Shown here piece after piece: positions 10,698 through 13,287 of a stretch of DNA of 37,325 nt. The number at the start of each line of letters is the position of its first letter. The stretch's first letter is position 1. Position numbers and translations under genes: made by a program. The notes beneath the pieces are model-generated. The model was given only the letters and a program-made list of their open reading frames with translations. It was not told the origin of the DNA and did not search any database. The DNA comes from Gammaproteobacteria bacterium (GTDB lineage Bacteria; Pseudomonadota; Gammaproteobacteria; Thiohalomonadales; Thiohalomonadaceae), in contig JAPHSX010000028.1 in the NCBI GenBank assembly GCA_026196575.1, positions 1-37,325 of the forward strand, written 5' to 3'.

Positions 10698-11036
10698 ATG
10701 GACGAGCTGGAGAGTTGCGGTATCGGGCGTGCGCCGAATCTGGGTGCGGTGACGGTGGTAGTGTTGACCGGCGAGCCGCCGCTGGCAGATTACCGGGCGG
10801 CGATGGCGCGTGCCGACCGGGTGGCCGCCGAGCGGCTGGGGGAGTATATGCTGCTCTCCTGGTACGATCGCGATCGTGACTTTGAGTCGCCACAGCACTC
10901 CAGCGAGTGCCACCAGGCGAGTGCCACACCGGGCTATGTCGATTACGGCATCCACCACGGCGCCACCCTCAAGGTCGATATCGAGCAGGGGCGCTTCGTC
11001 TTCTTCTACCTGCCGGTGGCGCTGGGGGCGTGTTGA
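10698..11036 (+). CDS. AF1514-like (DUF5619-type) small protein
   Basis: A 112-residue protein with an N-terminal helix-rich half (DYRAAMARADRVAAERLGE) and a conserved core MLLSWYDRDRDFESPQ, followed by a beta segment GATLKVDIEQGRFVFFYLP. The pattern L-S-W-[FY]-D-R, S-P, V-D-[IV] and final F-F/I-Y is what I know of the AF1514 family, which is common in sulfur-oxidising and sulfate-reducing microbes and has no assigned role. An in-frame ATG at 10686 has no ribosome site, whereas the ATG at 10698 has GGAG six bases upstream, so I choose 10698. The methyltransferase gene starts 25 bases downstream and is probably co-transcribed. Confidence 0.75.
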   Translation: MDELESCGIGRAPNLGAVTVVVLTGEPPLADYRAAMARADRVAAERLGEYMLLSWYDRDRDFESPQHSSECHQASATPGYVDYGIHHGATLKVDIEQGRFVFFYLPVALGAC

Positions 11037-11061
11037 TAACATAAGCCGATGAGGGTGGTGC

Positions 11062-11817
11062 GTGGCGATACTCTGGTGCAAACAGGAGGGTGAGACCCGC
11101 TACGAGGTGCGGGGCGCGGGCCATACCCGCCGCCTCTACACCAACGGCGTCTTTCACAGTCAGTACAATCCGCGTCAGCCGCTCACCGGCAGCGTCTGGG
11201 ATCTGCTGTTGCTCCCCGCCTTCCTGCTGCCCGCCGGGGCGGTGCGCCGTGTGCTGGTGCTGGGGGTGGGCGGCGGCGCGGTGATCCGCCAGCTCAACCA
11301 CTTTCTGGCACCGGAGGTGATCGTCGGGGTGGAGCTCGATGCGGTGCACCTGCAGGTGGCGCGCGAGCACTTCGGGGTGGAGCGGGAGAGTGTGGAGCTC
11401 CATCAGGCCGATGCCCGCTGGTGGCTTAAACAGTATCGTGGCGCCCCCTTCGACATGATTATCGACGACCTCTTCTCCGATACCGGCGGCGAGCCGCAAC
11501 GGGCGGTGGCGGTCGATGGGCCGTGGCTGCGGAGTCTGCTCAAGCTGCTGGCCCCGGCAGGGGTGCTGGTCTGCAACTTCGGCTCGCCCCAGGAGCTCAA
11601 CGAGTGCGCCTGGTTCCGGCAACCCGCCGTTGCCAAACGGCTGGTGAGCGCCTTTCAGCTCACCACCCCGCGCTATGAAAACGCGATTGGCGCCTTTGCC
11701 TGCCAGCCGGCGACGTCGGCCGCGTTGCGTGAGCGGCTGCGTGGTGTGGCGGGGCTCAATCCGCAGCATAAAACCAGCCGCCTGAACTACCGTATCCGCC
11801 GTCTGACACGCGATTGA
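11062..11817 (+). CDS. Spermidine-synthase-like methyltransferase-fold protein
   Basis: A 251-residue class I SAM-binding-fold protein resembling spermidine synthase. The nucleotide-binding loop is VLVLGVGGGAVIRQL, followed by VGVELDAVHLQVA with the acidic ribose ligand, and an HQADARWW segment equivalent to the adenine-contact Asp. FDMIIDDLFSD stands where spermidine synthases have the catalytic Asp (typically DxxD). The N-terminal beta barrel is reduced (RRLYTNGVFHSQYNP). It may be a true aminopropyltransferase, but such shortened spermidine-synthase-like proteins are often of unknown substrate. The start is a GTG at 11062 with GAGGG six bases upstream. Confidence 0.75.
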   Translation: MAILWCKQEGETRYEVRGAGHTRRLYTNGVFHSQYNPRQPLTGSVWDLLLLPAFLLPAGAVRRVLVLGVGGGAVIRQLNHFLAPEVIVGVELDAVHLQVAREHFGVERESVELHQADARWWLKQYRGAPFDMIIDDLFSDTGGEPQRAVAVDGPWLRSLLKLLAPAGVLVCNFGSPQELNECAWFRQPAVAKRLVSAFQLTTPRYENAIGAFACQPATSAALRERLRGVAGLNPQHKTSRLNYRIRRLTRD

Positions 11818-11842
11818 TGGTGGTGGCGGTGCAAATCGGGAC

Positions 11843-11862
11843 ATCCTACATGAATGTAGGAT
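11843..11862. repeat. Perfect palindrome overlapping the GacA-like box
   Basis: ATCCTACA-TGAA-TGTAGGAT is a perfect 8-bp inverted repeat with a 4-base centre. Its right arm is also the left arm of the TGTAGG-N6-CCTACA box at 11855-11872, so three half-sites (TCCTACA, TGTAGGA, TCCTACA) are arranged in series. This could bind a regulator cooperatively. Confidence 0.7.
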
Positions 11863-11872
11863 TTCTCCTACA
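11855..11872 (+). promoter_or_regulatory. GacA/UvrY-box-like operator of the sRNA
   Basis: TGTAGG-ATTTCT-CCTACA has the same 18-bp architecture as the known GacA upstream activating sequence TGTAAG-N6-CTTACA and differs by one symmetric transition in each half. It is centred about 42 bases before the predicted sRNA start, consistent with activation. The -35 region of the promoter is poor, as expected for a promoter that depends on an activator. That the local GacA homologue binds it is inference. Confidence 0.65.
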
Positions 11873-11893
11873 GCGCCTGCAGGGGTGTCGATG

Positions 11894-11899
11894 TAATAT
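11894..11899 (+). promoter_or_regulatory. -10 element of the sRNA promoter
   Basis: TAATAT lies 22 bases beyond the GacA-like box and about 7 bases before the predicted transcript start at about 11906. The bases at the -35 position (CAGCGC, 11871-11876) do not match the sigma-70 consensus. Confidence 0.5.
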
Positions 11900-11905
11900 G
11901 ATCTC

Positions 11906-12019
11906 AAGCTGTATGGATGCAGCGCGGAGTGACTCCTCCAGGGATTAGGCCAGGATGGCCGTGCCAAGGATGGTAAGCCCCCTTCAAAGGCCGGTATGGA
12001 CTACCGGCCTTTCTTTATT
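11906..12019 (+). ncRNA. RsmY/RsmZ/CsrB-type CsrA-sequestering small RNA
   Basis: A transcript of about 114 nt is predicted from the -10 element to the terminator. It contains six GGA motifs, at 11915, 11926, 11942, 11953, 11968 and 11998. Four are presented in hairpin loops: CTGT-ATGGAT-GCAG (11909-11922), GGCC-AGGAT-GGCC (11948-11960), TGCC-AAGGAT-GGTA (11962-11975) and the terminator loop TGGAC. Several fit the CsrA/RsmA binding consensus ANGGA. RNAs of this class bind and remove CsrA/RsmA from target mRNAs under control of the GacS/GacA (BarA/UvrY) two-component system. Length, motif density, loop display and the upstream box all match RsmY/RsmZ; primary sequence of this class is poorly conserved, so it is easily missed by homology. 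No open reading frame of note covers it. The start is estimated, not measured. Confidence 0.8.
11986..12019 (+). terminator. Rho-independent terminator of the sRNA, with GGA in its loop
   Basis: AAAGGCCGGTA (11986-11996) pairs perfectly over 11 bp with TACCGGCCTTT (12002-12012), loop TGGAC, followed by the T-rich CTTTATT. The reverse strand has no T-tract, which fixes the orientation. It lies 167 bases before the dnaJ-like gene, so it ends a separate short transcript. Confidence 0.92.
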
Positions 12020-12186: not shown

Positions 12187-13287
12187 ATGAGTAGCGGTGA
12201 GCGTGACTATTACGAGGTGCTGGGGGTCCCCCGTGACGCTGACGAGAAGGCGATCAAGCGGGCCTATAAGCGCCAGGCGATGAAGTACCACCCGGATCGC
12301 AACAAGGATCCGGATGCCGAGGAGAAATTCAAGGAGCTCGCCAAGGCCTACGCCCTCCTCTCCGATCCGCAAAAACGCAAGATGTACGATGCCGGCGGCA
12401 TGGGCGGTGTCTCCCACTTCAGCGACGAAGATCTCTTCCGTAACGTCGATTTTGGCGACATTTTTGGTGGTTTTGGCGTCGATTTTGGCGTTGGAGGCGG
12501 CTCTATCTTTGACCGGTTTTTCCGCCAGCCGCAGCAGCGCCAGACCCACGGTGTGGATCTGCGGGTGCGCATGCCGGTAACGCTTGACCGCGTCTGCCAT
12601 GGCGGCAGCGAATTGTTGCGCTTTACCCGGCGTGTGGCCTGCCCCGCCTGCCACGGTCACGGTACCCGTTCGGGCAAGCCGCCCGCGCAGTGTCAACGCT
12701 GTCAGGGCAGCGGTCGCCAGGTTATCGCCAGTGAGGAGGGAGGCGGCCAGGACTATATCCAGCTCCAGCGGGTGGTGAGTTGTCCGGCGTGCCATGGACG
12801 TGGTGTCGTGATTGACGATCCCTGCCCGCGATGCGGGGGCACGGCAGAGGTGGAGAGGGAGGAGAGCCTGAAGATCACCATTCCCGCCGGTATCGAGGAT
12901 GGCAGTGTGATGCGGGTGCCCGGACACGGCCTGCCGGCAGGAGAGGCGGGGATGCCAGCCGGTGATCTCTATGTGGAGGTCTATACCCTTGGGGATCCCC
13001 GGTTTCAGCGTCACGGTGCCGATCTGTGGCACACCGAGCGTCTCAGCGTGCCTCATGCGGTGCTGGGAGCGAAGTTGCGGGTGCCGACGGTGGATGGCGA
13101 GGTGGATGTCACTATCCCGCCGGGGATGCAGCCCGACGAGATGCTGCGGCTGCGCGGCAAGGGGCTGCCGCGTTATCGCGCCAAGGGGCTCGGTGACCTT
13201 ATTCTGCGCATCGAGGTGGTTATTCCCGAGCGCTTGAGTGATGAGGAGCGGGGACTCTACCAGCGGCTGGCGGCGCTGCGGCATTGA
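12187..13287 (+). CDS. DnaJ-type Hsp40 co-chaperone (type I paralogue)
   Basis: The 366-residue protein has the complete type I DnaJ layout. The J domain (residues 5-70) carries HPD at 35-37; a Gly/Phe-rich linker ([16 protein letters not shown]) follows. The zinc domain has four CxxCxGxG-like repeats ([32 protein letters not shown]), and two beta-sandwich substrate domains end with [19 protein letters not shown]. It would stimulate DnaK ATPase and deliver clients. No dnaK or grpE is adjacent and the sequence deviates from canonical DnaJ (for example, the linker is short), so this is probably a second, stand-alone paralogue. The ATG at 12187 has AGGGGAG seven bases upstream. Confidence 0.9.

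Follow-up and report, generated by a model that had tools for sequence, protein, structure and literature searches.

What is encoded in the intergenic region that separates a spermidine synthase/methyltransferase-like gene from a dnaJ-like gene in a genome of the Thiohalomonadaceae? The region is part of the 37,325-nt stretch of DNA analysed here as a whole (contig JAPHSX010000028.1, hereafter the window), and a sequence-only reading had proposed that it harbours an RsmY/RsmZ/CsrB-type sRNA. The elements on which this proposal was built are all present, i.e. an exact 18-bp TGTAGG-N6-CCTACA box, a TAATAT -10 element, six GGA motifs with four of them in short hairpin loops, and a perfect 11-bp terminator with a T-rich tail on the same strand (Table 1). 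The proposal had also stated that no coding frame explains the region, in agreement with the lack of a plus-strand ORF of at least 80 amino acids across the sRNA; a 332-amino-acid ORF at 10969-11967 lies on the minus strand, antisense to the methyltransferase-like gene.

Table 1. Positions in the window of the predicted sRNA, its control elements and the neighbouring genes
Feature	Position	Strand	Remarks
Spermidine synthase/methyltransferase-like gene, upstream	11062..11817	+	NCBIfam below cut-off; 72% identical in G001
Overlapping inverted repeat ATCCTACAT-GA-ATGTAGGAT	11843..11862	+	Read directly; third half-site upstream of box
GacA-box variant TGTAGG-N6-CCTACA	11855..11872	+	TGTAGGATTTCTCCTACA = TGTAGG-ATTTCT-CCTACA
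-10 element TAATAT	11894..11899	+	21 nt downstream of box; read directly
Predicted sRNA, about 105-114 nt	11906..12019	+	Alternating hairpins that carry GGA motifs
Hairpin 1, GGA in loop (GCTGTATGGATGCAGC)	11908..11923	+	Local hairpin; kept in G001 as GTTGCAGGACGCGGC
Hairpin 2, GGAG-TGA-CTCC, GGA paired	11926..11936	+	G001 stem identical
Linker GGGA (AGGGA)	11941..11944	+	Conserved in G001
Hairpin 3, GGCC-AGGAT-GGCC, GGA in loop	11948..11960	+	G001 GGUC-CGGAU-GACC, C-G to U-A double change
Hairpin 4, TGCC-AAGGAT-GGTA, GGA in loop	11962..11975	+	In G001 two pairs changed on one side, GGA retained
Intrinsic terminator, perfect 11-bp stem AAAGGCCGGTATGGACTACCGGCCTTT + CTTTATT	11986..12012	+	Two double compensatory changes in G001
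dnaJ-like gene, downstream, outside the sRNA	12187..13287	+	DnaJ_bact E 1.5e-100, below equivalog cut-off

The box TGTAGGATTTCTCCTACA is the sole exact match to TGTAGG-N6-CCTACA in the window, and a search of the whole 2.74-Mb genome for further such boxes returned it alone. Its architecture fits the published TGTAAG-N6-CTTACA site, with 10 of the 12 specified bases equal and one symmetric base per half different. With the start of the sRNA placed near 11906 from the position of the -10 element, the box is centred at about -42. No sigma-70 -35/-10 hexamer pair was found at the promoter, where a -35 match is missing, and this is consistent with an activator-dependent promoter. Extra half-sites lie beside the box, namely CCTACA upstream in the window (11843-11862) and TGTAGG 3 nt downstream in the same-genus genome G001 (L016:2220-2250). 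The inverted repeat of the window has no conserved counterpart upstream of the G001 box. In the E. coli csrB promoter, TGTAGGAGA is found 5 bp downstream of the palindrome (PMC4682653).

Within the predicted sRNA the four GGA-loop hairpins comprise GCTGTATGGATGCAGC, GGCCAGGATGGCC, TGCCAAGGATGGTA and the terminator with its loop TGGAC, and five of the six GGA motifs match ANGGA/AGGA. The minimum-energy fold contains three of these four hairpins, while the TGCC...GGTA hairpin appears in the minimum-energy fold of G001 alone. Of the 7,409 further 114-nt segments that the window yields on its two strands, 0.4% have at least six GGA motifs. Four GGA-loop hairpins were found in none of these segments and in none of 2,000 dinucleotide shuffles, which have a mean of 0.36. 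This hairpin count says more than the overall folding energy, which is modestly better than that of shuffled sequences for the window sRNA (z -2.15) and similar to it for G001 (z -0.33). No Rfam family reached its gathering threshold in the window, and the models of RsmY, RsmZ, RsmX, CsrB and CsrC gave no window match even at E <= 10. By sequence, the sRNA falls outside these families.

To what extent these elements are conserved can be judged from the one homologue that was found besides the window itself among 56 genomes (76% identity over box and sRNA, E 1.8e-15). It is located on contig JAOUQQ010000145.1 of a Chromatiales bacterium MAG (G001), the one genome of this genus besides that of the window, and follows the same methyltransferase-like gene, which provides a syntenic anchor. 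The G001 box, TATAGGATATCTCCTACA, is identical to the window box at 16 of 18 positions, and the gap between box and -10 element (TACGAT in G001) is 21 nt in both genomes. In a hand alignment of the two sequences all 28 proposed base pairs are standard in both genomes, with 18 pairs the same in both, one-sided changes in 7, two-sided changes in 3 and none broken. This covariation evidence is real but thin, as it derives from a single clear homologue and hence from two sequences. G001 keeps five GGAs, in hairpins 1, 2, 3 and 4 and in the linker, so that of the four loop GGAs pointed out earlier those of hairpins 1, 3 and 4 persist, while the one in the terminator loop is lost and, being unconserved, is probably no binding site. 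The flanking DNA has diverged between the two genomes and the elements are kept, which is the opposite of the loss of GGA loops amid conserved flanks that had been named as speaking against such an sRNA. A covariance model built from the single window sequence matches G001 with 71.8 bits. The next matches (G000:C3, G001:C158, G017, G018 and G002) score at most about 24 bits, and those inspected resemble plain terminators or chance. As an anchor beyond the genus the methyltransferase-like gene was rejected: at 15 other loci no box or sRNA was seen behind the gene, although three of these contigs (L019, L028 and L031) stop too early to tell.

These data argue with high confidence that positions 11906-12019 encode a GacA-activated, CsrA-sequestering sRNA of the CsrB/RsmY/RsmZ kind, for which we infer transcription, GacA binding and CsrA sequestration. 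Phosphorylated GacA would bind TGTAGG-N6-CCTACA and activate the promoter with its -10 element but no recognisable -35. In its hairpin loops and linker the sRNA would then display three to five ANGGA/AGGA motifs. These would bind CsrA dimers and thereby remove CsrA from its mRNA targets, and transcription would stop at the 11-bp terminator.

Three other explanations have to be weighed. As the dnaJ-like gene lies on the same strand and starts about 175 nt past the terminator, the element might be a 5' leader or attenuator of this gene, with read-through controlled by the terminator or by CsrA binding. This is highly improbable given that in G001 the upstream neighbour is kept and the element precedes an unrelated gene in place of dnaJ, which argues against a dnaJ leader and shows that the dnaJ neighbour is not conserved. 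Moreover, an 11-bp stem and a T-rich tail make for a strong terminator, and there was no sign of a conserved anti-terminator pairing. The density and loop placement of the GGAs exceed every null tested, the GGAs are kept while the surrounding stems change, and in relatives several unrelated GGA-rich RNAs stand behind a TGTARG box. All of this makes it very unlikely that the transcript is an mRNA-pairing sRNA of the Hfq or ProQ type under another regulator, with incidental GGAs, even though relaxed Rfam searches gave weak sub-threshold similarity to sroB and to a betaproteobacterial sRNA, mainly via the terminator.

Finally, hexamers such as TAATAT are common and the terminator could also end the methyltransferase-like gene, so the arrangement might be a chance mix of a palindrome, a -10-like hexamer and the terminator of the upstream gene. 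The compensatory changes and the conservation in G001 amid a diverged intergenic region have largely refuted this already, and together with the uniqueness of the box in the genome and the GGA-hairpin chance tests they leave it barely credible.

A CsrA-sequestering sRNA under GacA control is further supported by the regulators found in the same genome, where a search for csrA and gacA/uvrY had been suggested. csrA is located at C33:907 behind lysC (CsrA E 1.3e-25, open frame), and the gacA/uvrY ortholog (NF007018, 299.6 bits compared to a cut-off of 280) stands in the gene order gacA-uvrC-pgsA, as in E. coli K-12. The genome also has a second box, TGTAGGACAATTCCTATA (L068:550-567, G000:C25:73949 onward), behind which about 320 nt (L068:736-1056) contain 20 GGA motifs, 17 of them unpaired in the minimum-energy fold, and a terminator. 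G001 keeps this box as TGTAGGACAAATCCTATA together with the 3' part of the RNA, which appears shorter there. The L068 RNA is a candidate for a second, longer CsrB-like Csr sRNA. The distance from its box to the inferred start is about 180 nt, as in E. coli csrB, whose published site is centred at -183/-182 (PMC4682653). A hybrid box of the same genome (C39:74-91) has GGAs downstream and lacks a terminator, so no sRNA is claimed there.

With RsmY, RsmZ and RsmX of Pseudomonas the window sRNA shares a short length (118 nt for RsmY and 133 nt for RsmZ in P. fluorescens SS101, PMC4353343), repeated GGAs in hairpin loops and an intrinsic terminator, and an 18-bp palindrome likewise lies upstream (TGTAAGCATTCTCTTACA, the GacA UAS, in rsmY). 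Even the inner bases of the box, ATTTCT, resemble CATTCT of rsmY. In contrast to these RNAs, G and C replace the inner A and T of the box, the box lies near the promoter (centre about -42), the genomic place is different and Rfam gives no match. CsrB and CsrC of Escherichia coli, which are under UvrY control, likewise have multiple ANGGA motifs, whereas the window sRNA has about a third of their length and a box adjoining the promoter. Additional Csr/Rsm sRNAs have been reported from other lineages, i.e. RsmX-2 of P. brassicacearum, discovered via a GacA UAS search (PMC7911923), and Pf1 of Pseudoalteromonas, presented in PMC9927453 as a new Csr sRNA; we liken both to the window sRNA by description. 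The sRNA itself would be of a known functional kind, working like RsmZ/RsmY, and the newer element may be a lineage-wide box variant linked to a change in the GacA helix.

The symmetric difference per half-site had been suggested to define a lineage-specific GacA box, and the distribution of the variant supports this idea. In 20 genomes of the family TGTAGG-N6-CCTACA has 19-21 exact sites (counted from a list with one row per place) compared to 2 for a reversed control pattern, while the canonical TGTAAG-N6-CTTACA has one. The order-level searches covered the same 20 genomes and thus add no breadth. GGA-rich, terminator-ended RNAs stand behind TGTAGG or mixed boxes in genus g8 (L035, L038, L039, L043), in genus g11 (L040/L066 long, L062/L067 short) and, elsewhere in the class, in other families (L118, L119, L122, L129, L130, L132, L134, L135, L136, L142). 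Judged by eye from the sequence and a terminator/GGA scan, they are candidates for further Csr sRNAs. Those of g8 show a weak, sub-threshold Rfam resemblance to RsmY. Several TGTARG sites in relatives stand before genes or without a GGA-rich RNA and were excluded from the sRNA count.

The long g11 RNA (L040:1501-1860 and L066:696-1060) carries more than 25 GGA motifs in about 300 nt, stands behind TGTAAGTAATTCCCTACA and ends in CCCGGGCATTGCCCGGG. In three class families (L119, L134, L142) the GGA-rich sRNAs behind GacA-type boxes adjoin, by eye, an apparent typA 3' end on the opposite strand, and this shared neighbour suggests a conserved sRNA locus. In genus g8 two TGTAGG-N6-CCTACA sites (L036, L059) adjoin an apparent Fis-family regulator gene with no sRNA and are possible direct GacA targets. 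Within single sites TGTAGG has been seen before, in the E. coli csrB flank (PMC4682653) and in Marinomonas csrA1 (PMC8523701); no description of a TGTAGG-type lineage was found in the literature searched, which largely excludes subscription papers.

All GacA proteins of the family with a readable recognition helix have SPKTIS or SPKTVS, and E. coli UvrY has SPKTVN. The Asn/Ser residue presumably corresponds to Lys188 of NarL, a position that contacts bases. Among genomes with a readable helix plus a site, the Ser type accounts for 28 GG, 19 mixed and 2 AA sites and the Asn type for 1, 1 and 5 (Fisher p = 1e-4 by site and 3e-4 by genome), with some non-functional boxes included in these counts, as the reversed-pattern control gives about 0.3 sites per genome in the class set. 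One or two changes of the residue suffice on the GacA tree, which means that the genomes cannot count as independent and that a single event may lie behind the association. G040, with Asn and an AA box, is placed inside the Ser group with weak support and may be an independent Asn/AA case; no GGA-rich RNA lies behind its site. The box variant may thus track the replacement of Asn by Ser in the recognition helix, an association that is strong across genomes. We give even odds to a joint switch in part of the Gammaproteobacteria, in which the GacA operator TGTAAG-N6-CTTACA was replaced by TGTAGG half-sites along with a change of Asn to Ser (SPKT[VI]N to SPKT[VI]S), in this direction or the opposite one.

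The candidate sRNAs described here extend the Gac/Csr circuit to little-studied lineages in which Rfam detects no such RNA, and they provide a usable search key, i.e. TGTARG-N6-CYTACA, then GGA hairpins, then a terminator. As the proposed change pairs a box base with a helix residue, the DNA specificity of GacA is directly testable by a single substitution. If true, the specificity of a global regulator would have co-evolved with its operator, with the sRNA targets rewired alongside, and the Csr sRNAs of this lineage would have been hidden from box-based searches.
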